Below are positions 5,880 to 49,152 of a stretch of 64,000 bases of DNA, piece after piece (the first letter of the stretch is position 1; each line of letters starts with the position of its first letter). The notes beneath the pieces were generated by a model. It ran no database searches, was not told the DNA's origin, and was given only the letters and a program-made list of their open reading frames with translations. Location of the stretch: assembly GCF_030389965.1 (NCBI RefSeq), contig NZ_CP128400.1, positions 2,046,001-2,110,000 on the forward strand, given 5' to 3'. Source of the DNA: Candidatus Chlorohelix allophototropha (GTDB lineage: Bacteria; Chloroflexota; Chloroflexia; Chloroheliales; Chloroheliaceae). Made by a program: the position numbers and the translations under genes.

Positions 5880-5969
5880 TGCCACTATCCTCTTACCCCT
5901 CTTCTCATCCTCTTTTCATCGTGGGGATATGTCCCTATCGCCGGGTTACACCCATCCACCAGCCCGAAT

Positions 5970-33194: not shown

Positions 33195-34547
33195 CTATTT
33201 AAATTCAAGCAGGGTGTTGCTTACCAGTGCGCCTTTCTTGGCGAGTAGGGCGTTGGTAATTTTGTCCACCAGATAAACGCCACCCTTGTAGCCCACCACC
33301 GAACGGCGATGATAGCCATAGCGATCTTCCACCGGGAAACCGGCGCGGATGAGCGGGACTTTTTCCTCGTCAGCAATGTACTTGCCTTTGGAGTGACCGA
33401 TTAACAAGTCCACCGGATGCGCCTTCATCTTTTTATGGATAGCGTAGAGGTCGGTTTTAGGCATGATTTCCATATCCAGATTGAATTCTTCCGACAGAGC
33501 CATCAAATCAGTGGGCCAAGTTTTGGAGTCGGTGGCGGTTGCCACATACTTCGGCTCCATACCCATTTCCACTACCAGCCTTACCAAACCTTCTACCAAA
33601 TCAGGGTCACCGTAGATTGCGACCTTTGCGCCAGTAGTAATCATATGGGTATCCACGATTGCATCCAGCATACGGGCGCGTGCCGACTGGAGTTCAGCCG
33701 ATACGGGCTTTCCGGTTATTTCAGACAGGGTTTTGATGAAGCGATCGGTATTTGCCATACCAATCGGCATCGGCAGAACGTGAGCCGGAACGCCATAACG
33801 CCGTTTGTAAACCCGCGCCGCTTCTCCACCCACATGCTTTTGCAAAGCGATTGTGCCGAGCGCATTAGCCGAGTCCTTGATTTCGTCAAGGCTAATGCCA
33901 CCCTTCGGGAAATGGGGACGAGGCGAATACAAACCGCCGTCCAGCGTATCCGAATAATCGGTTAGCACCAGCCCATCAATCTGCATCTCGCTCAAGATTT
34001 CTTTAATCTCGCGAATGTCGCCGGGATTAACCCAACCGGGGATAATGTTAACCCGTTTGTTGGGGCGAGTCTTGCGAGGTAACGCCAACGCCAACTCTTT
34101 CAAGAAATTATCAAAGCCGGTGATATGCGTACCTACATAGGATGGAGATTTTACCGCCAATATCGGAATATCTATTTCTGGATTCAGCCCTTTGAACTCG
34201 TCAATGAACGCGGGGATGTCATCGCCGATGGTTTCGGATAAGCAGGTGCTGCAAACCGTAATCATCGTAGGGTTGAAGCGTTCATAGACGTTCTTTATGG
34301 CTGCCAGCAAGTTCTCACGTCCACCGTAGATGGTGGTACTCTCGGTCAGCGAACTGGTCGCCACTTCCACCGGTTCGCGGAAATGACGCGCCATTTGGTG
34401 ACGGGGATAAGTAGCACAACCTTGAGAGCCGTGATTGATGGTAAGCGCGCCATGTATGCCGAAGGTAGCCAGCATAGCGCCGATTGGTGCGCAAGCGCGT
34501 AGCGGATTAATCGAAACCGCTCTTTCTTGTTTAACAACTGTGCTCAC
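33195..34547 (-). CDS. nifK: Nitrogenase beta subunit NifK (short form)
   Basis: A 450-aa component of the dinitrogenase, which with NifD reduces N2 to ammonia. P-cluster cysteines are C19 (PLRACAP), C44 (GSQGCATYP) and C102 (CSTCLSE). HFREPVEVATSSLTESTTIYGG is typical of NifK. It lacks the ~50-residue N-terminal extension of Azotobacter NifK (523 aa), as in Anf/Vnf and Roseiflexus-type proteins. The start is GTG 34547, overlapping the nifD stop by one base (TAGTG), so translation is coupled. Confidence 0.95.
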   Translation of the reverse strand: MSTVVKQERAVSINPLRACAPIGAMLATFGIHGALTINHGSQGCATYPRHQMARHFREPVEVATSSLTESTTIYGGRENLLAAIKNVYERFNPTMITVCSTCLSETIGDDIPAFIDEFKGLNPEIDIPILAVKSPSYVGTHITGFDNFLKELALALPRKTRPNKRVNIIPGWVNPGDIREIKEILSEMQIDGLVLTDYSDTLDGGLYSPRPHFPKGGISLDEIKDSANALGTIALQKHVGGEAARVYKRRYGVPAHVLPMPIGMANTDRFIKTLSEITGKPVSAELQSARARMLDAIVDTHMITTGAKVAIYGDPDLVEGLVRLVVEMGMEPKYVATATDSKTWPTDLMALSEEFNLDMEIMPKTDLYAIHKKMKAHPVDLLIGHSKGKYIADEEKVPLIRAGFPVEDRYGYHRRSVVGYKGGVYLVDKITNALLAKKGALVSNTLLEFK

Positions 34548-35944
34548 TATGCCACTTCCTCTTCTAGCCCACCCGGTACGGGCTGCGCCATATCTTTTAC
34601 CAGTTTCCAGACCGGAGCGGACAATGCTTTGTCCATATCACGGGCGAAGTTGACCATACCGGAGAAGCCTGCGTAGGGCCCTGTTTCGTAGGTGTGACCG
34701 TTTACAAATGGTACGCCCAACTTGTATGCCACATACTTCTCTTTGTTGCCGGAAATAAACAGGTCAGGTTTCAGGGTAAGCAGGATTTCTTCCAGTTCAG
34801 GCACGTTCGGGTTATCAATGATGAACGCGCCATCATTGACCTTTTCGTAAATCTTCTGATAATCGTCAGCGTGACCGAAGGTGGTAGCCGCGCCGATGGT
34901 TTCCATGCCAAGTTCCGCCAGCAACTCGGGCCAGTGCCAAGCGCGAGGGCCGCCCTGATAGATGAACACTTTCTTCCCGGCAAGGCGTTTGCGGTAATAC
35001 TCAATCTTCGGCATAACCTTAGCCACTTCGCGCTTGATGACCTTTTCTGCCTCATGTTCTAGCCCAAAGAAGGCAGCGGTATCGCGCAAAGCTTTGGACA
35101 TATTCTCAATGCCCCACAAGGTTACGTTAATGGAAGGAGTGCCGTATTTAGTTTCCATCATATCGGCAACATAGGTGGCAGAACGGGCGCAGTGGATTAC
35201 ATTGAGCTTGGCGCGGTGCATCACCTTCAGCTCGTCCACTTTGACGTTGCCGGTGAAGCGAGCGACTATATTCAAGCCGATTGCTTCGAAAAGCGGTTCA
35301 AAAGTGCGTAAGTCGCCTTTGATGTTGTAATCGCCCAAAATGTTGATGGAGTAAGCCGAGTCTTCTTCCGGCTCTGCTGTTCCTACCAGATTCTTGAAGA
35401 TGGTTTCGTTGCCTACGTGGTGTCCGGCGGATTGGCTAACGCCCCGGAAACCTTCGCAAGGGAAGAAAACTACGGGCTTGCCGATTTTCTCGGTGGCAAT
35501 TTTAGCTACGTCCTTGCCATCGTCACCGATTAGGGCGGTGGTGCAGGTGTTGTAGATGAAAACGCCTTTGGCTTCGGGGAAGGCTTCGTTTGCTTCGATA
35601 ATGGATTGCAAAAGCTTTTTCTCACCGCCGAATACTACGTTTGATTCGTCCATATCGGAAACGAAGGTGTATTTCATGTGGAAATCGCTATCGGCGATGT
35701 GCGGGCGATAACCCCATGAGAAGAAAGCACAACCGATAGGCCCGTGGGTAAGCTGGATGGCATCTTGCACGGGCCCGCCCACCACACCGCGACATCCGGC
35801 GTAGGTACAACCGCGCTCGGTCATATCACCGGGGGTTGTAGCGGAGTTACAGGCTATCGAACATTTACCGTCCTGTCCCTCCCCTTTGATAAGTATATGT
35901 TTATCCCTTTCGGGGATAGTTGCATCGCATTTCAAAACTGCCAT
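34547..35944 (-). CDS. nifD: Nitrogenase alpha subunit NifD
   Basis: A 465-aa protein carrying the cofactor. P-cluster cysteines are C46, C72 and C134. The cofactor ligands are Cys252 (VIHCARS) and His417 (NGHTYETGPY). Gln171 and His175 of GVSQSAGHH, which shape the active site, are present. The region GGPRAWHWPELL and the spacing HTYETGPYAGF (one residue shorter than HSWDYSGPYHG of Azotobacter) look closer to Anf/Vnf and uncharacterised nitrogenase types. No AnfG/VnfG gene is present, so a molybdenum enzyme is the likelier choice. It lies 3 bp after nifB. Confidence 0.95.
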   Translation of the reverse strand: MAVLKCDATIPERDKHILIKGEGQDGKCSIACNSATTPGDMTERGCTYAGCRGVVGGPVQDAIQLTHGPIGCAFFSWGYRPHIADSDFHMKYTFVSDMDESNVVFGGEKKLLQSIIEANEAFPEAKGVFIYNTCTTALIGDDGKDVAKIATEKIGKPVVFFPCEGFRGVSQSAGHHVGNETIFKNLVGTAEPEEDSAYSINILGDYNIKGDLRTFEPLFEAIGLNIVARFTGNVKVDELKVMHRAKLNVIHCARSATYVADMMETKYGTPSINVTLWGIENMSKALRDTAAFFGLEHEAEKVIKREVAKVMPKIEYYRKRLAGKKVFIYQGGPRAWHWPELLAELGMETIGAATTFGHADDYQKIYEKVNDGAFIIDNPNVPELEEILLTLKPDLFISGNKEKYVAYKLGVPFVNGHTYETGPYAGFSGMVNFARDMDKALSAPVWKLVKDMAQPVPGGLEEEVA

Positions 35945-35947
35945 CAG

Positions 35948-36877
35948 TTACACCTTCTTTCTGGGTTGCAGGTTCATCGGAGCTTGGTCGTTCAAAAACT
36001 TGGGAGTACAGGAATTGTCAGTTGAGCAATCCTCTTCACCCGGTACGCCTACAGCATCGGCGCGACATTGCCTGCAATTCATAAACTGCTTAATATGTTT
36101 CTCGCACTCGGTACGGATAGCCGCCAATTCCGCCGGAGTGGGAGGGATTACATCTTTGAACTTTGCCTGTGGGATTAAGGGCATGATGTTCATTACATAA
36201 GCCCCTAACGCGCTGACGACTCGCGCAATTTCCACCATATGTTGGTCGTTTACGCCGGGAATAAGCACCGAATTGACTTTTACCACCATACCCAACCGCA
36301 CCGCTTCTTTAAGCCCTGCCAATTGGTTCGCGCTTAAAATCTCGAAAGCTTCACGGTCACGGTAGGTTTTGCCCTGATAACGTACATGCGTGTAAATGTG
36401 CTGACCTACTTCTGGGTCAACGGCGTTGATGGTGATGGTGAGCGCGGTTACGCCCGCCTTGTGCAGTTCTTCCACTCGTTCGGGCAAAGCCAGCCCATTG
36501 GTGGATACACACTTGACCAACCCCGGAAACTCTTCTTTTGCCAGCAGAAAGGTTTCGAGAGAAGCCGAATTAGCCAGCGGGTCGCCGGGACCTGCGATGC
36601 CGAGAACGGTCATTCGCGAGTCGGCTTTCATCGCCTGACGAATCGTGGTTAACGCCTGTTCCGGGCTAACCACCTTAGTGGTAACACCGGGGCGATTTTC
36701 GTTCGGGCAATCATACTTCCGCACGCAGTAACCACACTGGATATTGCATTTTGGCGCTACCGGCACATGGATACGTCCAAACCGGAAGTGGGCAGCTTTG
36801 CCATAGCAGGGATGAGCCGCAACTTTTGCGGACAAATCTGGTTGTAGCTGGGAATCCAGCGCAGTGGTAAAAGTCAT
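35948..36877 (-). CDS. nifB: Nitrogenase cofactor biosynthesis protein NifB (radical SAM, no NifX domain)
   Basis: A 309-aa radical-SAM enzyme that makes NifB-co, the 8Fe-9S-C core of FeMo-co. The SAM cluster motif is C44, C48 and C51 (APKCNIQCGYC). HPCYGKAAHFRFGRIHVPVA before it and RQCRADAVGVPGEEDC near the end are diagnostic. Many bacterial NifB proteins carry a C-terminal NifX domain. This one does not. It lies between nifI2 and nifD, as in Roseiflexus-type operons where nifB is inside the structural operon. Confidence 0.94.
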   Translation of the reverse strand: MTFTTALDSQLQPDLSAKVAAHPCYGKAAHFRFGRIHVPVAPKCNIQCGYCVRKYDCPNENRPGVTTKVVSPEQALTTIRQAMKADSRMTVLGIAGPGDPLANSASLETFLLAKEEFPGLVKCVSTNGLALPERVEELHKAGVTALTITINAVDPEVGQHIYTHVRYQGKTYRDREAFEILSANQLAGLKEAVRLGMVVKVNSVLIPGVNDQHMVEIARVVSALGAYVMNIMPLIPQAKFKDVIPPTPAELAAIRTECEKHIKQFMNCRQCRADAVGVPGEEDCSTDNSCTPKFLNDQAPMNLQPRKKV

Positions 36878-39064: not shown

Positions 39065-40507
39065 TCAGAGGGGCGCGTTAGCGACACACACCACCAACCG
39101 AAAACCGAAAAAGTTGAGATCGTTGCGAGGAAGGTTGAAGTAGCGGTACACGCAGGACGCATTAGCTTGACTGACGAGGAAAGACCCGCCCCGCAGCACA
39201 CGATACTTACCGCTCGCGTCCACCGCCACTTCCTTAGGCTTCTCGTACTTGTTCTGGCACCACTCCCACACGTTCCCGCCCATGTCCATTGCCCCGCATG
39301 CTGCGGCCCCTTGCGGGTACATCCCCACTGCCGTTGTTCGACCCAAACCGGCTTCATCCGTATTGGCGTAACCCTTTTGCCACGCGCCCCACGGATATTT
39401 GCGCTGTTGGCTGCCCCCTTGCGCCGCCCATTGCCATTCCCATTCGGTTGGCAAGCGCACCTCCGCGTTCTCCCCGATTATCAATGGACTGCCGCTACCG
39501 CCCGGATTCGGCAATTGCCAGCCCTGCATGCACTGAGTGAGCCAACGCCCAAACGCTACCGTCTGATACCACGACATGTTATCTCGCGGCATGTTCAAGC
39601 CTTTCTGCCTTTGCTCACTCAGTGTTTGCGGCTGGTATTCTCTCGGGAAGCCCTGCCACCACTCCCGGTTGTTATATCCGTCCGCCGCTTTCACAAAGGC
39701 TTCGTACTGGGCAAAGGTTATTTGGTATTGCGCAATGTAAAAGGGTTGTACCTCAAAGTTTTGTTTCTCAATTTCCAGCTTACCACCCGGCGCTACCGCT
39801 AGCCACTCTATGTCCGGGATACCGTCCGGGCGCAAGCCCACCCCTCGCCGCGTGTCACCGATTTCGCTCAAGCGGTCGCCGATTTCCATACGGCGTTGGT
39901 GCGTGGTAGTAAGGTCGCCGATTTCATCTAGCAACCGCTCAGCATCATTTTCAGAAGGCGCGGGTTTCGGCTCTGCCGCCTTTGCTACGGGCGGGGCTGG
40001 TTGTGGAACTGCAACGGGCGGGACGGGCGGCTTTTCGACAGGGGGAGTAGCAACAGGCGGTTCGGGTATTACAATGCCGAAATTCTTGGCATGGAGGCGC
40101 AACCCTTTCAACAGCATTTCGCGCCCACGCTCATCATAGAACCGCGCCGCTTGCCATTTGCTCAACCTTCGTGGAATTTCGCACTCCGCCAGTTTCAAGG
40201 GGATGATATTGCTCAACCCTTCCGGCATATACTTGGCATAGTAAAGCGCGGTTTCTATCTCTGCCTGTACATAGCCAATTTTTGCCACCGATTCGGGCGT
40301 AAGACACACCAAGATGATGTGACTTTCTTCCAATGCCTTCTCAATGGCGTACTGCCAAGGCTGTCCCGGATATAGTTCTTCCTCGTCCAGCCATGGCTCA
40401 AGCCAGTGGCTTTCAGCTTTCAAACGCTGGTACAATTCGCGCACTATGGGCTTATCCCCGGAGGAGTGGCACAGAAACACTTTCAGTTTGGGGGGTACGT
40501 TGGGCAT
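39065..40507 (-). CDS. TIR-FGE protein A (variable C-terminal lectin-like domain)
   Basis: A 480-aa protein. The TIR domain spans residues ~8-140 (LKVFLCHSSGDKPIVRELY, candidate catalytic E in GYVQAEIETAL). A Pro/Ala-rich linker follows, then an FGE-sulfatase/C-type-lectin-like domain (about 215-480) with EWLAVAPGGKLEI, PFYIAQYQITFAQYEAFV, VRLPTEWEWQWAAQGG, YPWG and the closing VLRGGS...GFRLVVC. The catalytic Cys pair of true FGE is absent, so the domain probably binds a ligand. I chose ATG 40507 (MPNVPPKLKVF) because it matches the starts of the two paralogues. The last variable segment is described separately. Confidence 0.88.
   Translation of the reverse strand: MPNVPPKLKVFLCHSSGDKPIVRELYQRLKAESHWLEPWLDEEELYPGQPWQYAIEKALEESHIILVCLTPESVAKIGYVQAEIETALYYAKYMPEGLSNIIPLKLAECEIPRRLSKWQAARFYDERGREMLLKGLRLHAKNFGIVIPEPPVATPPVEKPPVPPVAVPQPAPPVAKAAEPKPAPSENDAERLLDEIGDLTTTHQRRMEIGDRLSEIGDTRRGVGLRPDGIPDIEWLAVAPGGKLEIEKQNFEVQPFYIAQYQITFAQYEAFVKAADGYNNREWWQGFPREYQPQTLSEQRQKGLNMPRDNMSWYQTVAFGRWLTQCMQGWQLPNPGGSGSPLIIGENAEVRLPTEWEWQWAAQGGSQQRKYPWGAWQKGYANTDEAGLGRTTAVGMYPQGAAACGAMDMGGNVWEWCQNKYEKPKEVAVDASGKYRVLRGGSFLVSQANASCVYRYFNLPRNDLNFFGFRLVVCVANAPL
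39107..39181 (-). other. Hypervariable segment of TIR-FGE A (DGR-type variable region candidate)
   Basis: 25 codons between RGGS and GFRLVV. Compared with the three other copies, the flanks are almost nucleotide-identical while inner codons differ at positions 1 and 2. Examples are GTC here against CAC, AAC and GGC in the other copies, and AGT against TAT, AAT and GAT. Confidence 0.65.
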
Positions 40508-40586
40508 TGTTTGCGCTCCGGCGTAGGGTTTATCGGTAGGCGATTGCAGTTTAATTATACCCAAACGGGCAAAGTTCCGCTACCGT
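40508..40586 (-). promoter_or_regulatory. Shared promoter region of TIR-FGE A
   Basis: On the minus strand TATAAT (40559-40554), preceded by TTTGCCCGTTTGGG and followed by TAAACTG and CGCCGGAGCGCAAACA before the ATG. The same text precedes TIR-FGE B and C. The -35 is not clear. Confidence 0.6.
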
Positions 40587-40632
40587 TGCTTACCGAGAGG
40601 CGTTAGGATGTGGATGAATGCGCTCGGCGGTT

Positions 40633-43281
40633 TCAAAGACCCGCGATAGGAGACGACACCACCAACCGAAAACCGATAAGGTTGCCAACGTGGCTCGGAA
40701 GACTGAGGCTACGGTACGCACAGGAAAAAGTTTGATTGTTATAGAAAGACCCACCCCGCACCGCCCGCTGCATACCGTCCACCGCCACATTCTCCGGTAG
40801 CTCATACTTGTTTTGACACCACTCCTCCACGTTACCACTCATATCCATTGCGCCGCATGCTGCTGCCCCTTGCGGGTACATGCCCACCGCCGTTGTTCGT
40901 GCCAAACCTGCTTCATACGTGTTGGCGTAGCCTTCTTTCCATTCTCCCCAAGGATATGCCCGCTTTTGGTTACCCGCTTGCGCTGCCCATTGCCATTCCC
41001 ATTCAGTTGGCAAGCGCACCTGCGCGTTCTGCCCCACCACCAACGGGTTATTCCCACCGCCCGGACTCGGCAATTGCCAGCCCTGCATGCGCCTGTTCAG
41101 CCAACGCCCAAACGCCACGCTCTGATACCATGAGATGTTATCGCGCGGGTTGTTCAAGCGCATTTGCTTCTGCCCTTTAAGTGTTTGCGGCTGGTATTCT
41201 TTGGGGAAGCCCTGCCACCACTCGCGGTTGTTATAGCCGTCTTTTGCTTGCACAAAAGCTTGGTATTGCGCAAAGGTTATTTGGTATTGGGCGATATAGA
41301 AAGGCTGTACCTTAAAGGTCTGTTTCCTACGAGGATAATTTTCAATATCTAGATTGCCGCCCGGCGCAACCGCCCGCCACTCTATGTCGGGGATACCATC
41401 CTTGCGCACGCCCACGCCTTGCCGTGTGTCGCCGATTTCGCTCAATCTGTTGCCGATTTCCATGCGGCGCTGGTGCGTAGTGTTGGGGGCGGCAATTTCA
41501 TCAAGCAATCGTTCCGCTTCGGTTTTGGTAGGCGCAGGTTTTGGTGCTGCTGCCTTTGCTACGGGAGTAGGCGCAGATTGGGGCGCGTTAGCGGAACACA
41601 CCACCACCCGAAAACCATAATAGTCGAGATCGCGGTACGGATCGTTGTACGTGCCGTATGAGCAGAACGCAAGATCATGATAGTGGTAGTAAGACCCGCC
41701 CCGCAACACTTGACTATCAAGACTTGCTCCCAGACTCAACCCCCTGTACTGACACCACTCCCACAGGTTTCCGTTCATGTCCAACGCCCCGCATACTGCC
41801 GCCCCCTGCGGGTACATCCCCACCGCCGTTGTTCGACCCAAGCCCGCTTCATCCGTATTGGCGTAACCCTTTTGCCACGCGCCCCACGGATATTTGCGCT
41901 GTTGGCTGCCCCCTTGCGCTGCCCACTGCCATTCCCATTCATGCGGCAAGCGCACCTGCGCGTTCTCCCCGATTATCAATGGACTGCCGCTACCGCTCGG
42001 ACTCGGCAATTGCCAACCTTGCATGCGCTTATTCAACCACCGCCCGAACGCCATCGCTTGATACCACGATATACTATCACGCGGGTTACTTGCGCATTTC
42101 TGTCTTTGTTCATGCAGCTTTTGCAGTTGGTACTCCTTTGGAAAGTCCTGCCACCATTCCGGGTTCTGGTAGCCGTCTTTTGCCTGTACAAACGCCTCGT
42201 ATTGGGCAAAGGTTATTTGGTATTGCGCAATGTAAAAGGGTTGCACTTCAAAGGTTTGTATGTCAATTTTCAGCTTGCCGCCCGGCGCAACCGCCAGCCA
42301 CGCTATATCGGGTAGACCGTCCGGGCGCACGCCTACACCCTTACGCGGGTCGCCCATCTCGCTCAACCTGTCGCCGATTTCCATACGGCGTTGGTGCGTG
42401 GTTTTAAACTCGCCGATTTCGCGCAACAAGCGGGTTTGCTCGCTTTCGGGTACAGACGAAACGGGCGTGGGTTGTGGCGCTGCCGCTTTTACTATGGGCG
42501 GGGCTACTGGCGCGGGTTTTGGCGTAGCAACGGGCGGTTTTTCGGCAGGGGGAGTGGCAACGGGCGAAATAGGAGAGGCAACCTGAGCAGCCAACACGCG
42601 CTTTTCCAGAATAGTTATTTCCTTACGCGCATCTTCAAGCTGGATTATCAAGTGAGGGGGCGCGTTAAGACTACCGAATTGCGCGTACTGCAACTCCAGC
42701 ACCGTCAGTCGGCGTTTAGTTTCAACTAACAGTTTTTGCAAAATCTCCAAGTCGGTTATCGCATTGGATGACGTTTCGTTGAATGGAGCTGAGACGGGCG
42801 GCGCGGGCGGCTTTTCGATAGGGAGAGCAGCAATCGGCGTTTCGGGTATGACGATGCCGAGCTTTTCGGCACGCATCCGCAACGCCCGCAGCAAATGCTC
42901 GAATCCATCCTCCTCGAAATGATCTACCCAATGCCATTGGCTCAACTGCTCTGGCACTTCGCACTCTTCCAAGCGCAAAGGTATCATGTAGATAGTACCT
43001 TCCGGTTTCTCCTGAGCTACATCCAGCGCATCACCAATCTCTTTTTGAACATAGCCTTCCCGATTGATGGAGTTCCGCGAGAGACACGCCACCACAATTT
43101 CGCTTTGCCGAATTGCTTTGGGAATTTCCACCCGCCAGTTCTGTCCCGGAATCAAATCCTTTTTATCCAGCCACGGCTTTACCCACGATAATATAGAAAG
43201 TCGCTCATATAGCCGGATTACCGCAGGCTTATCCGGTGAGGCGTGGCACAGAAAGACTTTCAGTTTGGCGGGGTCGGGCAT
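40633..43281 (-). CDS. TIR-adaptor-FGE-FGE protein B (two variable lectin-like domains)
   Basis: An 882-aa protein. TIR covers residues ~7-145 (KVFLCHASPDKPAVIRLY, E81 in GYVQKEIGDAL). A helical hairpin adaptor lies at ~178-232 (LELQYAQFG, NAPPHLIIQLEDARKEI). A Pro/Ala-rich linker, FGE-type domain 1 (about 300-565), a second linker and FGE-type domain 2 (about 610-882) follow. Each FGE domain ends in its own RGGS...GFR variable segment. The adaptor hairpin is shared with the STAND protein at 59417. The tandem arrangement probably arose by fusion of two TIR-FGE genes with loss of the second TIR. Confidence 0.88.
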   Translation of the reverse strand: MPDPAKLKVFLCHASPDKPAVIRLYERLSILSWVKPWLDKKDLIPGQNWRVEIPKAIRQSEIVVACLSRNSINREGYVQKEIGDALDVAQEKPEGTIYMIPLRLEECEVPEQLSQWHWVDHFEEDGFEHLLRALRMRAEKLGIVIPETPIAALPIEKPPAPPVSAPFNETSSNAITDLEILQKLLVETKRRLTVLELQYAQFGSLNAPPHLIIQLEDARKEITILEKRVLAAQVASPISPVATPPAEKPPVATPKPAPVAPPIVKAAAPQPTPVSSVPESEQTRLLREIGEFKTTHQRRMEIGDRLSEMGDPRKGVGVRPDGLPDIAWLAVAPGGKLKIDIQTFEVQPFYIAQYQITFAQYEAFVQAKDGYQNPEWWQDFPKEYQLQKLHEQRQKCASNPRDSISWYQAMAFGRWLNKRMQGWQLPSPSGSGSPLIIGENAQVRLPHEWEWQWAAQGGSQQRKYPWGAWQKGYANTDEAGLGRTTAVGMYPQGAAVCGALDMNGNLWEWCQYRGLSLGASLDSQVLRGGSYYHYHDLAFCSYGTYNDPYRDLDYYGFRVVVCSANAPQSAPTPVAKAAAPKPAPTKTEAERLLDEIAAPNTTHQRRMEIGNRLSEIGDTRQGVGVRKDGIPDIEWRAVAPGGNLDIENYPRRKQTFKVQPFYIAQYQITFAQYQAFVQAKDGYNNREWWQGFPKEYQPQTLKGQKQMRLNNPRDNISWYQSVAFGRWLNRRMQGWQLPSPGGGNNPLVVGQNAQVRLPTEWEWQWAAQAGNQKRAYPWGEWKEGYANTYEAGLARTTAVGMYPQGAAACGAMDMSGNVEEWCQNKYELPENVAVDGMQRAVRGGSFYNNQTFSCAYRSLSLPSHVGNLIGFRLVVSSPIAGL
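40675..40746 (-). other. Hypervariable segment 2 of TIR-FGE-FGE B
   Basis: 24 codons between RGGS and GFRLVV, one codon shorter than copies A and B1. The downstream flank (SSPIAGL, the stop and ~50 bp beyond) is nearly identical to that of TIR-FGE C, as expected for a conserved initiation site of mutagenic homing. Confidence 0.65.
41617..41691 (-). other. Hypervariable segment 1 of TIR-FGE-FGE B (internal)
   Basis: 25 codons, rich in Tyr, His and Asp (YYHYHDLAFCSYGTYNDPYR). The flanks CGGGGCGGGTCTT and GGTTTTCGG match copy A. Its CSANAP end matches the CVANAP end of A. The position inside the protein means the variable surface is not restricted to the C-terminus. Confidence 0.65.
42586..42750 (-). 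other. Helical-hairpin adaptor shared with the STAND protein at 59417
   Basis: Residues ~178-232 of protein B and residues ~8-62 of the 59417 protein share the pattern L..L...A.FG..N.PxH....Q..D..KEI..LE. It is predicted to form two helices joined by a short FG-N-P turn. A homotypic interaction is inferred. Confidence 0.6.
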
Positions 43282-43360
43282 GTTTGCGCTCCGGTGTAGG
43301 GTTTAGCTCTAACGCAACTACAGTTTAATTATACCCAAACGGGCAAAGTTTCGCTACTGC
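43282..43360 (-). promoter_or_regulatory. Shared promoter region of TIR-FGE-FGE B
   Basis: TATAAT on the minus strand (43333-43328) in the same ~80-bp context as for A and C (TTTGCCCGTTTGGGTATAAT). The conserved block continues into the 3' flank of gene C. Confidence 0.6.
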
Positions 43361-43407
43361 TGCTTCACCGAGAGGCGTTAGGATGTGGATGAATGCGCTC
43401 GGCGGTT

Positions 43408-44847
43408 TCAAAGACCCGCAATAGGGGACGATACCACCAACCGAAACCCGCAATCGAAATATCCGTCTAGTGGAAGACCATAGCCATAACGAAACATGCA
43501 CGCTGCCCCAACCTGATCGCCATAGCAAGAGCCACCCCGCAGCACTCGACTGTTCCTGCTCTCGTCCACCGCTACCTCGTCCGGCTTTTCCCACTTGTTC
43601 TGACACCACTCCCACAGATTGCCGCTCATATCCATTGCCCCGCATTTCGCCGCCCCTTGCGGGTACATGCCCACTGCCGTTGTTCGCTTCAAACCCGCTT
43701 CGCTGGTATTAGCACAACTCTCTTGCCACACGCCCCACGGATATTTGCGCTGCTCTGCCCCACCCTGCGCCGCCCATTGCCACTCCCGTTCCAAAGGCAA
43801 CCGCACCTGCGCGTTATTGCCCACTATTAACTGATTACCTCCACCGCCCGGATTGGGTAACTGCAAACCCCGCATATACCGATTCAACCAACGCCCAAAC
43901 GCCACGCTCTGATACCACGACACATTGTCCCTCGGATTGTTCAATCTCATTTGCTTCTGCCCTTTAAGTGCTTGTGGCTGGTATTCTTTCGGGAAGCCTT
44001 GCCACCACTCCCGATTCTGGTAGCCGTCTTTTGCCTGCACAAAGGCTTCATATTGGGCAAAGGTTACTTGGTATTGGGCGATGTAGAAGGGCTGTACTTC
44101 AAAAGTCTGTTTCGCTACTTCCAACCTACCGCCCGGCGAAACCGCCAACCACGCTATGTCGGGTAGCCCATCCTTGCGCAAGCCCACGCCACGCCGCGGG
44201 TCGCCGATTTCGCTCAACCTGTCGCCGATTGCCATGCGGCGTTGGTGCGTGGTGTTGGGGGCGGCAATTTCATCGAGCAATCGTTCCGCTTCGGTTTTTG
44301 TAGGCGCGGGCGTGGGTTTCGGTTCTGCCTCTTTTCTAACGGGCGGGGCTACTGGCGCGGGTTTTGGCGTAGCAACGGACGGTTTTTCGACATGGGAAGC
44401 GGCAACAGAGGAAATTGACACACCCACTTGCCCGGCGCGTTTCTTGAACGACTTCAACAACCGCGCATAACTACCCGCCTCGAAATAATCAACCCAATGT
44501 AAATGCCCCAACCGCTCTGGAACTCGACACTCTTCCAATTTGAGCGGAACGAGAAATATAGCTCCTTCCGGTTGCTGGTCTGCCACATCCAGCGCAAGTT
44601 TAATTTCTTTGTGGACATACCCGGCAGCATCGGTAGCATTAGGCGACAAGCACACAATTACTATGTGGCTCTGACGCACCTCTTTGGGTATTTCTAGCTC
44701 CCAATTGTCACCCGGTGTCAGGTCTTCCTTGTCCAGCCAAGGTTGAATCCAGCCCTCATTCTGTAGCTGCTGATAGAGTTCATACACTCTGTGCTTATCT
44801 TTATGCGAGTGGCACAGAAACACTTTCAGTTTGGCGGGGTCGGGCAT
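43408..44847 (-). CDS. TIR-FGE protein C (variable C-terminal lectin-like domain)
   Basis: A 479-aa protein. TIR spans residues ~7-140 (LKVFLCHSHKDKHRVYELY, E in GYVHKEIKLAL). A linker rich in Pro/Ala (about 150-195) follows, then the FGE-type domain (about 205-479) with DIAWLAVSPGGRLEV, PFYIAQYQVTFAQYEAFV, VRLPLEREWQWAAQGG, YPWG and GNLWEWCQNKWEKP. It ends in the variable segment and GFRLVVSSPIAGL. It is the first gene of the three-gene array, with its own promoter module. The inferred role is a TIR effector gated by a variable recognition domain. Confidence 0.88.
   Translation of the reverse strand: MPDPAKLKVFLCHSHKDKHRVYELYQQLQNEGWIQPWLDKEDLTPGDNWELEIPKEVRQSHIVIVCLSPNATDAAGYVHKEIKLALDVADQQPEGAIFLVPLKLEECRVPERLGHLHWVDYFEAGSYARLLKSFKKRAGQVGVSISSVAASHVEKPSVATPKPAPVAPPVRKEAEPKPTPAPTKTEAERLLDEIAAPNTTHQRRMAIGDRLSEIGDPRRGVGLRKDGLPDIAWLAVSPGGRLEVAKQTFEVQPFYIAQYQVTFAQYEAFVQAKDGYQNREWWQGFPKEYQPQALKGQKQMRLNNPRDNVSWYQSVAFGRWLNRYMRGLQLPNPGGGGNQLIVGNNAQVRLPLEREWQWAAQGGAEQRKYPWGVWQESCANTSEAGLKRTTAVGMYPQGAAKCGAMDMSGNLWEWCQNKWEKPDEVAVDESRNSRVLRGGSCYGDQVGAACMFRYGYGLPLDGYFDCGFRLVVSSPIAGL
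43450..43527 (-). other. Hypervariable segment of TIR-FGE C
   Basis: 26 codons between RGGS and GFRLVV, with one extra codon relative to A. Examples of the pattern are GGC, GAT and GTT at the columns where the other copies have AAC/CAC/GTC, AAT/TAT/AGT and ACT/GAT/GCT. Confidence 0.65.
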
Positions 44848-46681: not shown

Positions 46682-46966
46682 GTTTACTGCCGGACACACC
46701 AGCGCGGAAGCGTTTACCGCAGGGCTGTCGCCGAATTTACCGCTTCAGCCTCACGTGTGGTATGCGATAAACGCGCTAGACTCAAAAAAGGGCGACTATA
46801 GGCAATTTTCGTGTGGTATGCGGTAAAGAATTGAGGCGAACACGCATGCTATGGTGTGGTATGCGGTAAAGATCATGCCGTAAAGTTTTGCACATGCTGA
46901 ACGTGCGTGTGGTATGCGGTAAAGAGTAGTGTGAATAATTTACCGCTACGTGTGGTATGCAGTAAA
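46682..46966. repeat. Iteron array 1 of a putative replication origin
   Basis: Direct copies of GTGTGGTATGCGGTAAA or one-base variants at 46755, 46811, 46854, 46907 and 46950, a partial copy at 46875, and degenerate inverted copies at about 46683, 46713 and 46737. Start-to-start distances of 56, 43, 53 and 43 bp are close to whole helical turns. This looks like binding sites for a replication initiator. Confidence 0.8.
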
Positions 46967-47025
46967 GATTTGAGCGGGATATGTGGCACATCCCCAAATA
47001 ATTGCGCCATTTCCGTTCCCGTAGA

Positions 47026-47115
47026 GGGTATTTGAATACGCCCTTCGTGCGTTAAAACCGGGCGCGTCGAGCCACGCCCATACTGCCTGTACCCTGAAAG
47101 GGTATCCCCGAATGG
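47026..47115. repeat. REP-like element between the iteron arrays
   Basis: GGGTATTTGAATACGCCC, CCGGGCGCGTCGAGCCACGC and CCTGAAAGGGTATCCCCG, all family 1 components. It lies between the two iteron clusters. Confidence 0.55.
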
Positions 47116-47303
47116 GGTATACCAATCCGAACCCCCCTCCCCTGCCACATCCCTAAGAAATACGCCATCTCATCACGGGGATATGTCCCTATCGTGCGGT
47201 TGCACAAATCCCCCCCAATTGCCCCTTCTATAAAAAGGATTGACAAACTTTCCAAAGCGGGTTATAACATTTAGTAATAGAACATTTGTGCTTTACTTTT
47301 TTG

Positions 47304-47364
47304 GTGTGACATGCAGTAAACATCTGTGTGGTATGCAGTAAGTACATGCGCACCATGCAGTAAA
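47304..47364 (+). repeat. Iteron array 2, three copies with 22-bp spacing
   Basis: GTGTGACATGCAGTAAA (47304), GTGTGGTATGCAGTAAG (47326) and GCGCACCATGCAGTAAA (47348). The exact 22-bp period is two helical turns and is classic for iteron plasmids. The AT-rich stretch 47385-47440 just after could be the unwinding element. Confidence 0.8.
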
Positions 47365-47516
47365 CGATTCAGGTTCAGAATCGCGTGCTATAAAGTATTA
47401 ATACATGAGTATAGTTATGTAATCTAGTAAAGGCGCTTGCCCACCCACCCGGCGCACTTTATTATTACATTCAGAATATTGTGTATCACTCTTTGTATTA
47501 GCCTGAACCCGACAAG

Positions 47517-49004
47517 ATGGCACGAGTGAGTAAAAACGGACTACAACAACCTGATTCTCTTAGGGAGGGCGGCGCATCGGCGCGGCAACCTGCTTTTGTG
47601 TTTGGCGGCTTCGGCAGTCAAAACCGCTATGCCGTGTTGGATGAAGTGACCGACCACCTGATGGCGCACCTGAGCGAAGCCGAGTTCAAGGTGCTTCATT
47701 ATATTATTCGGCGCACCCTCGGTTTCCACAAGCCCGCCGATGCCATCTCACTCCAGCAATTCTGCAACGGGATTCGCCGCCGCGATGGTACTATCCTCGA
47801 TTGCGGCACAGGCTTGGCGAAAACCACCGTCCTGCGCGGAATTGATGGGCTACTGAGCAAGGGCATCATCTGGGAACAGACGCAAGATAACCCCTATCAA
47901 CCCGGCAACCAACCCAAAATCTACGGCTTGAGCTTTGCCACCGCCGATACGCTATCGCCAACCTCCTACTCTGATAAAAACTATTCAGAGAATGAATACT
48001 CTCCTGAGAGTAAAGGTAGTAGCAATTTGATACCACCTGTTCCGCTAGATAGTAGCGCCACGCTACCGGGTAGTAGCAATTTGATACCACCCCCAAGCGA
48101 GCCGCCAAACATTTCGCCTACCATCGCCGCGACTATTTCTAAGAGTAGCTTGCCGATTCCCGCTTTTGCCCCCTTAGATAGTAGCGTGGCGATACCGGGT
48201 AGTAGCAATTTGATACAGGGGGTAGTAGCAAATAAGCACCGAGAGGGGTTTCAAAATGATACTGGGGTAGTAGCACAAAGCTACCCACAACATGACAGTA
48301 AACAACTAATTAGACAAATAAAAGATAACAACAACATGTTGTTGCCGCCTACGTCTGATAATTTAGCACGTAAGCTTGAGCCGGAACTGGAGGCAGAACT
48401 TGAGCGTTTGGGCTACGAGCGCAAGACCCTTGAACGTTTGCTAGGCGCATACCCTCACGCTTATTTGCGCGAAAAGCTGGCTTTGCTATACGAGCGCGTG
48501 CGCCGCGAACAGGTAGCTAACCCGGCGGGTTTTTTGCTCAAGGCGTTGGAGGCGGATTATCGCGCCCCCGCTCTGTCGGTTGTGCCGCCCGCTAAGCCGA
48601 CTTTTCCCTACGTTAGCGCGTTGCTAGAGGAGCGCCGCCGCTTGTCGCAGGAAACGCCTTTGCCGCTTGAAGAAAGTAGTCCACCCCAAGACGATTTGCC
48701 CGAAGCTGTTACCGGAGGACACACCAACGGTAAAGTTTTGCTGCCGGAGTCGCTTATCGACTCGACCGAGCTTTTCAAAGGTGCGCTGGAAGAACTGGAC
48801 GGGCCGCTAAACCGCCCCGATCTTGCCGCGCACTTGCGGTCAGGCACTTTGGAATTGCTAGAGGCGCGCGCGGACATGCTTGAGTTTGCGCTGCACCTGC
48901 AAGAACGTTGGCGCATCGCACAGCTTAGCCAATCGGACATCGCGCTGCTGCGGATGGCGCTACGGCGTTGCGCGGATCGCCCCTGTTCGCTCACACTGGC
49001 ATAA
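47517..49004 (+). CDS. Replication initiator-like protein (phage O/plasmid Rep winged-helix type)
   Basis: A 495-aa protein. Residues ~30-145 match the winged-helix DNA-binding region of phage replication protein O and related plasmid initiators (LSEAEFKVLHYIIRRTLGFHKP, KTTVLRGIDGLLSKGIIWEQ). Residues ~165-260 form a low-complexity linker with three GSSNLIP repeats. The C-terminal half is helical, with no helicase motif. Lambda O binds iterons and loads DnaB, so this protein is the natural partner of the iterons directly upstream. The start ATG is at 47517, 152 bp after the last iteron. Confidence 0.78.
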   Translation: MARVSKNGLQQPDSLREGGASARQPAFVFGGFGSQNRYAVLDEVTDHLMAHLSEAEFKVLHYIIRRTLGFHKPADAISLQQFCNGIRRRDGTILDCGTGLAKTTVLRGIDGLLSKGIIWEQTQDNPYQPGNQPKIYGLSFATADTLSPTSYSDKNYSENEYSPESKGSSNLIPPVPLDSSATLPGSSNLIPPPSEPPNISPTIAATISKSSLPIPAFAPLDSSVAIPGSSNLIQGVVANKHREGFQNDTGVVAQSYPQHDSKQLIRQIKDNNNMLLPPTSDNLARKLEPELEAELERLGYERKTLERLLGAYPHAYLREKLALLYERVRREQVANPAGFLLKALEADYRAPALSVVPPAKPTFPYVSALLEERRRLSQETPLPLEESSPPQDDLPEAVTGGHTNGKVLLPESLIDSTELFKGALEELDGPLNRPDLAAHLRSGTLELLEARADMLEFALHLQERWRIAQLSQSDIALLRMALRRCADRPCSLTLA

Positions 49005-49092
49005 GGGTTGGCTTGTTCTTATAGTTTTATGTAAGCGGGTAGTCACTAAGAAATCGGTTGCCGAGGATGGCATAGCAGTTTGGCACAAGAGC

Positions 49093-49152
49093 GGGTTACT
49101 ATACAGGTCTTATGATTTTTGCTCTGCAAAGCTTGCGCCTGTATAGTAACCC
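49093..49152. other. 15-bp perfect inverted repeat downstream of the initiator gene
   Basis: GGGTTACTATACAGG (49093-49107) and its exact reverse complement (49138-49152), spaced by 30 bp. There is no T tract, so a simple terminator is unlikely. It could be a partition, resolution or recombination site. Confidence 0.5.

Follow-up and report, generated by a model that had tools for sequence, protein, structure and literature searches.

We analysed a 64,000-nt stretch of the genome of Candidatus Chlorohelix allophototropha (the window; positions 2,046,001-2,110,000 of contig C2) in which repeated sequences (iterons) lie upstream of, and within, the gene for a 495-amino-acid (aa) initiator resembling protein O of phage lambda. 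A first-pass annotation, made from the sequence, had read this locus as an iteron-type replication origin of a plasmid or secondary chromosome. The genome comprises 6,086,194 bp in five contigs, C1 being 2,961,161 bp and C2 2,453,413 bp long. The published L227-S17 genome consists of two circular chromosomes (2.96 and 2.45 Mb), a 375-kb chromid and two plasmids (PMC10972752), and C2 matches the published ‘chromosome 2’ of Ca. Chlorohelix allophototropha. The computations covered the anatomy of the locus, how far it is conserved, selection acting on the linker repeats as DNA, and the reversal of strand polarity. The elements, in window coordinates, are as follows.

46683 to 46943, minus strand: inverted partial iterons, with GCRGTAAA cores at 46683, 46713, 46736 and 46939
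46755 to 46966, plus strand: upstream iteron array 1, in which the 17-bp direct iteron GTGTGGTATGCRGTAAA occurs five times; the same irregularly spaced array occurs at four orthologous loci
46976 to 47302, no strand: segment of about 300 bp between the arrays, absent from relatives (37-69 bp there)
47240 to 47268, plus strand: candidate sigma-70 promoter (TTGACA-17 bp-TATAAC), directed across array 2 towards the initiator gene; by sequence, weak, and not listed by the consensus scanner
47304 to 47364, plus strand: upstream iteron array 2, three copies with an exact 22-bp period, adjoining an AT-rich stretch
47361 to 47440, no strand: AT-rich stretch between array 2 and the initiator gene, a candidate unwinding element
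47517 to 49004, plus strand: initiator gene (495 aa), with a winged-helix N-terminus (aa 43-121), a repeat-encoding linker and a C-terminal KH-like domain (about aa 420-495)
48017 to 48285, plus strand: intragenic iteron array TAGTAGCNNNNNGMTACC, in two reading frames; candidate lambda-type core origin
48281 to 48345, no strand: AT-rich stretch adjoining the intragenic iterons on their 3′ side, with the palindrome CAACAACATGTTGTTG at its end; it may serve as a duplex-unwinding element

The copies of array 1 start at 46755, 46811, 46854, 46907 and 46950 with 0-1 mismatch each, and the spacings over these five copies (56, 43, 53 and 43 bp) agree with the values of 43, 53 and 56 bp reported previously. 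The exact 22-bp period ascribed to array 2 also holds, its copies at 47304, 47326 and 47348 having 2, 1 and 5 mismatches, respectively. By these counts the ‘eight clear copies’ of the first-pass annotation were slightly generous: six are strong, one is fair and one is degenerate. The inverted degenerate copies that it described are real and are represented by the four minus-strand cores listed above; half of the GCRGTAAA cores in the window (10 of 20) fall in 46683-47364. When up to three mismatches to the iteron were allowed, 7 of the 9 matches in the window were at the locus, compared with a mean of 0.21 and a maximum of 2 in shuffled windows; at up to two mismatches, the locus accounted for 7 of the 8 matches in the whole 6.09-Mb genome. 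The AT-rich stretch said to follow the arrays is present, and the one inside the gene had gone unnoticed. The segment between the arrays contains fragments of a dispersed repeat that occurs elsewhere on C2. No Rfam RNA was found at the locus.

The lambda-O-like, winged-helix assignment of the initiator is supported. Pfam Phage_rep_O matches aa 43-121 with 31.5 bits (cut-off 28.7) and is also above cut-off in nine orthologues and homologues; the N-terminus matches O-like initiators in PHROG as well. Phage_rep_O is the only Pfam match of the protein, in which neither a Rep_3/RepE-type domain nor DnaA_N was found by Pfam. Using a profile of the family C-terminus, we obtained a weak match to DnaA domain I in the PDB (E = 0.01) and one of 27.3 bits over 84 residues to DnaA of the same genome, again in domain I. 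In one homologue (L207) a single chain scores above cut-off for Phage_rep_O (29.5 bits) as well as for DnaA_N (36.0 bits). In the AlphaFold2 model the C-terminus has a predicted local distance difference test score (pLDDT) of 91 and the order a-a-b-b-a-a-b of helices and strands; its fold matches are KH-like, with DnaA domain I among the leaders, other KH-like folds ranking alike and none below E 0.001. These profile and model comparisons suggest a KH-like domain resembling DnaA domain I. Since domain I recruits the helicase in DnaA, the C-terminal domain may be a helicase-recruiting tail. In some distant homologues (L185, L189, L191 and L197) the lambda-O-like winged-helix domain occurs twice in tandem within a single open frame.

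The linker with GSSNLIP repeats had been noted as unusual and of low complexity. The linker is real; the low-complexity reading is not retained, since the linker is a lambda-type repeat array at the level of the DNA. The 18-mer TAGTAGCNNNNNGMTACC is present in six copies with 0-1 mismatch (48017, 48050, 48071, 48179, 48200 and 48268), with a degenerate copy at 48143 and a partial one at 48223. The TAGTAGC copies of the linker occupy two reading frames, and therefore the repeats are not explicable by selection on the protein. In 5000 synonymous codon shuffles, repetition never came up to the observed level. Lambda O, used as a positive control, beat all shuffles in the same test, as did many homologues, including a paralogue on C1, every one with a repeat sequence of its own; a substantial minority of homologues, some of them short or cut, have no repeats. 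The linker repeats are under selection as DNA and constitute a second set of iterons, within the gene, laid out as in the phage lambda origin. The AT-rich stretch that follows them is the lowest-GC 60 bp of the gene, at about 30% compared with 55% gene-wide.

Orthologues with 36-46% identity are present in four genomes of the same family. At each of the four loci the upstream motif recurs, with 10-13 copies at up to 4 mismatches, and the elements come in the same order: an irregular array (spacings of, for example, 54, 43, 51, 45 and 31 bp), an exact 22-bp array and the gene. Homologues outside the family are without the upstream motif, and intragenic repeats are frequent in them. The locus adjoins parA-parB in three of the relatives, Chloroflexi bacterium 54-19, RYN_336 and isolate 14: a parS-like site follows parB, the distance to the iterons is 2-4 kb, and the flanks, as far as the fetched DNA extends, include genes that read as hisS, nrdR and nrdJ (names taken from translations). 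For two of these three relatives, the cumulative GC-skew minimum of the 15-21 kb of DNA fetched lies inside the iteron array; for the remaining one it precedes the array by 41 bp. In Ca. Chlorohelix the initiator was not found to be adjoined by parA-parB, unlike in repABC or parAB-linked origins. The earlier statement that no such pair is nearby is right within the window; an orthologous parA (75% identity) and a parB with a parS-like site lie 47 kb downstream, beyond its end, at C2:2,140.7-2,142.4 kb.

A further point raised in the first-pass annotation was whether dnaA/oriC is absent from this replicon. The sole full-length dnaA of the genome is at C1:664, and a genome-wide search found none on C2, which gave only one 32-bit match. 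Matches of the same score occur in eight other places across the replicons, and the match looks like an ATPase borne by an insertion sequence (IS). In the relatives, too, dnaA is on contigs other than those of the iteron locus. A DnaA-dependent origin was rejected: dnaA is confined to C1, and neither the locus nor the 1,160-kb position has a cluster of DnaA boxes.

In order to place the locus within its replicon, nucleotide skew was followed along C2. Whole-C2 skew is weak and has no single-point V shape. A broad minimum covers the iteron locus, and the deepest minimum of C2 is elsewhere, at 1,160 kb, for which reason the locus was rejected as the sole origin of C2. In the third-position keto skew, corrected for coding strand, the minima at 462 and 1,160 kb are the sharpest, and those around 2.07-2.15 Mb are broad. 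Two other modules, each comprising parA-parB and an HTH_36 initiator, are at C2:458,584-463,340 and C2:1,154,820-1,160,530 and sit at the remaining two skew minima; a gene reading as mnmG (gidA) is about 6 kb from the latter module. With termini set at midpoints, the initiator triple 462/1160/2093 kb scores 0.568, more than any of 4000 random triples (maximum 0.513). When three origins were sought by an unbiased grid search, the result was 450/1150/2125 kb. The fitted minima were 460, 1160 (90% confidence interval 1155-1165) and 1985 kb (1960-2150), and the fitted terminus switches were 790, 1690 and 50 kb, compared with midpoints of 811, 1626 and 52 kb. A prophage-like gene run at C2:1,998-2,021 kb has strong GC skew and disturbs origin calling. 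When the region 1,996-2,021.5 kb was masked, a decision made after the curve was seen, the third minimum moved to 2075, 2100 and 2100 kb in three tracks. Canonical parS clusters were rejected as origin markers, only single sites beside parB being present, and the skew of C3 around its two HTH_36 loci was too noisy to use.

Strand polarity of short motifs was also examined. The 9-mer ACATATCCC is the most strand-biased on C2 relative to a three-origin model; it was selected on C2 by its fit to that model and then tested out of sample on C1 and in a sister genome. On C2 it has 50 sites (18.3 expected) with a polarity of 50:0, a figure that relies on termini placed after the sites were seen; the best one-base variant gives 14:7. 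It changes from minus to plus only at 458-480, 1,156.8-1,161.2 and 2,093.2-2,150.9 kb, intervals that make up 3.4% of C2 and contain all three initiators. The switch at the window locus falls between C2:2,093,186 and 2,150,939. The copies in the window are at 5924, 8672, 46976 and 47178, the last two on the minus strand in the segment between the upstream arrays. On C1, which was examined through motif positions, 39 of 39 sites are consistent with fork direction, bringing the sites of this over-represented 9-mer on C1 and C2 together to 89. The minus-to-plus switches of C1 lie across dnaA and in a 9.6-kb interval (1,479,847-1,489,415) that contains the sole lambda-O-like paralogue of C1 and a ParB gene. 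This second origin-like locus (L018, L145) is almost exactly opposite dnaA (50.04% of the circle). The C1 termini (901-1132 and 1785-2204 kb) are closer to this locus, which would fit its firing after oriC. Its initiator (at 1,481,770) has an intragenic repeat of 21-bp period, TTTAGACC. An HTH_36 gene at C1:1,815 kb was rejected as an origin, as there is no polarity switch there. In the sister genome 54-19 (G083), the 9-mer with a 5′ G added is on the minus strand at 98,594 of contig C77 and on the plus strand from 120,510 to 492,240; the switch thus falls between 98,603 and 120,510, and the orthologous iterons and gene, at 117.8-120.2 kb, are inside this interval. Lambda-O or helix-turn-helix (HTH) loci on contigs C32, C41 and C66 of the same genome are likewise in minus-to-plus intervals. 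The 9-mer is enriched in this sister genome and at background level in Chloroflexota of other families, and it was rejected as a phylum-wide signal. In appearance it is a fork-oriented motif, perhaps one that guides FtsK.

The Phage_rep_O match, the lack of dnaA on C2, the conserved iterons beside parAB in relatives and the reversal of polarity at the locus or its orthologue in two genomes support the reading as an iteron-type origin of a secondary chromosome. We believe that the locus probably works as a bidirectional origin of replication of chromosome 2 and encodes the initiator for it. It had been presented as the origin of its replicon; the skew fit and the 9-mer indicate that it is probably not the only one, and we lean towards its being one of three on the single chromosome C2. 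On balance we also favour a wider picture in which C2 fires from three loci and C1 from dnaA-oriC and the lambda-O-type origin opposite, with a different initiator at each origin and forks meeting roughly midway, the family being stably multi-origin in an archaea-like manner. That a bacterial chromosome has a single origin is nearly a rule, and bacteria are not normally expected to carry several start sites on one chromosome. In this phototroph-related Chloroflexota family, an origin of phage-lambda style, with iterons inside the gene for an initiator whose tail seems DnaA-like, apparently resides on the chromosome as one of its origins. Whether bacteria keep several origins with unrelated initiators over evolutionary time is now a testable question in a cultured organism.

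For binding, melting, helicase loading, the division of labour between the arrays and firing in vivo, we infer the following course. The winged-helix domain would bind the dyad iterons within its own gene (48017-48285) and thereby open the adjacent AT-rich stretch (48281-48345) in the fashion of phage lambda. The C-terminal module resembling DnaA domain I would then recruit the replicative helicase, the role of lambda protein P. The same protein may bind both upstream arrays via GGTA-type half-sites. The array of 22-bp period, near the promoter, could aid opening and autoregulation; the irregular array, a probable handcuffing/copy-control or auxiliary origin array, would limit firing through handcuffing, like the control arrays of iteron plasmids.

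Several observations weigh against an origin at this position. The 9-mer was chosen on C2 by model fit, and therefore only C1 and the sister genome are independent tests; the 58-kb switch interval also contains parABS, so the iterons are not singled out. Another polar motif, CTTTACATAA, is in agreement at two of the C2 origins, the first and the second, and disagrees at 2132, 2139 and 2239 kb; it would place the switch near 2.25 Mb. The window locus has the weakest skew and the broadest minimum (1960-2150 kb) of the three C2 loci, and with the prophage-like region masked the fourth track put the third minimum at 2280 kb. The DnaA boxes at the locus amount to two scattered one-mismatch sites in 4 kb, with no cluster, and no helicase-loader gene P was found adjoining, the next open reading frames (ORFs) being on the minus strand and not loader-like.

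The claim of three origins is less sure than that of an origin at the locus, because the termini are IS-rich, the reads average 2.1 kb and natural replicon fusions are known. The origin could be real and C2 be two or three single-origin replicons joined by misassembly or recent fusion. Near-identical IS copies do concentrate around the predicted termini (C2 50-213, 555-798 and 1,659-1,665 kb), the reads of that mean length are Nanopore reads, and fusions occur naturally in Vibrio and Agrobacterium. However, the longest identical repeat pairs between the terminus regions are inverted, and therefore an assembly mistake would flip a segment and not join circles. The genome authors state that the circles are closed (PMC10972752), and C1 has the same multi-origin pattern; we consider joined replicons unlikely.

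Alternatively, the locus could be the silent relic of an integrated plasmid or chromid, C2 replicating from the 1.16-Mb locus only, where the deepest skew minimum lies beside another parAB and HTH_36 initiator. The region 2.00-2.22 Mb is richer in GC than the remainder of C2, and an insert separates the two upstream arrays. Yet the ORF and all three sets of iterons, two upstream and one intragenic, are intact, and polarity is reversed at the locus. The tetranucleotides of the region match the remainder of C2, the relatives share chromosomal synteny with parAB, hisS, nrdR and nrdJ, and rpoC is near the iteron locus in Ca. Chlorohelix; this synteny argues that there was no recent plasmid, and a recent integration was rejected. 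A silent relic is improbable. The reversals might instead stem from inversions, which flip strand polarity and can create false skew minima, and not from extra origins, the iteron locus being a regulatory array or phage leftover beside a breakpoint; the disorder of CTTTACATAA around 2.13-2.24 Mb and homologues on viral contigs speak for this. But inversion endpoints would be needed repeatedly at initiator genes (at three loci of C2, at one of C1 and at four that could be tested in the sister genome) and the reversals are also seen in the strand-corrected third-codon skew, which is slow to form, making this highly improbable.

The locus has neighbours of other kinds in the window. At 33198-36877 there are two nitrogenase-component-1-type proteins and a radical SAM protein, fitting nif and other nitrogenase-like sets alike. 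Proteins of TIR plus FGE-sulfatase-like type, several in tandem, are encoded at 39065-44847, and further TIR-like copies are spread across C2:1,978-2,147 kb; they are possibly conflict or signalling proteins.

Compared with known systems, the closest layout is that of phage lambda. Ori-lambda lies within gene O and is made up of four hyphenated inverted repeats of 18 bp next to an AT-rich region of 39 bp (PMC6022878); it is also annotated in NC_001416. Both systems have a Phage_rep_O winged-helix initiator and dyad iterons in the linker of its gene, followed by an AT-rich stretch. Unlike lambda, the present locus is chromosomal, has extra upstream iteron arrays and a different iteron sequence, and encodes a C-terminus that may resemble DnaA domain I. 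The layout clearly works like ori-lambda; strict membership of the lambda type fails because the adjoining P gene is missing.

Direct iterons upstream of the initiator gene are shared with Rep_3-type iteron plasmids, and a regular 22-bp array near that gene with an irregular second array recalls P1 and F, in which origin and inc control arrays are distinguished. In contrast to those plasmids, the initiator here is not of Rep_3 type, iterons are also inside the gene and there is no DnaA-box cluster. The 815-kb plasmid of Miltoncostaea oceani encodes the only match in a plasmid collection (WP_217924731.1, 37% identity over 97 aa of the N-terminus); there, genes for an AAA ATPase and a DnaB-like helicase follow, whereas neither adjoins here. 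By analogy, Vibrio chromosome 2 (PMC6090056) may offer a parallel as a secondary chromosome without dnaA that has its own iteron-binding winged-helix initiator, RctB; here no RctB homologue was seen by Pfam and the architecture is lambda-like. Naturally fused chromosomes with more than one active origin are known from V. cholerae NSCV1 and Agrobacterium isolates, and resemble the present case in having more than one origin per bacterial chromosome. Those fusions are strain-level, whereas in the present case each origin is surrounded by its own established polarity and third-codon skew, and several genera of one family share the locus.
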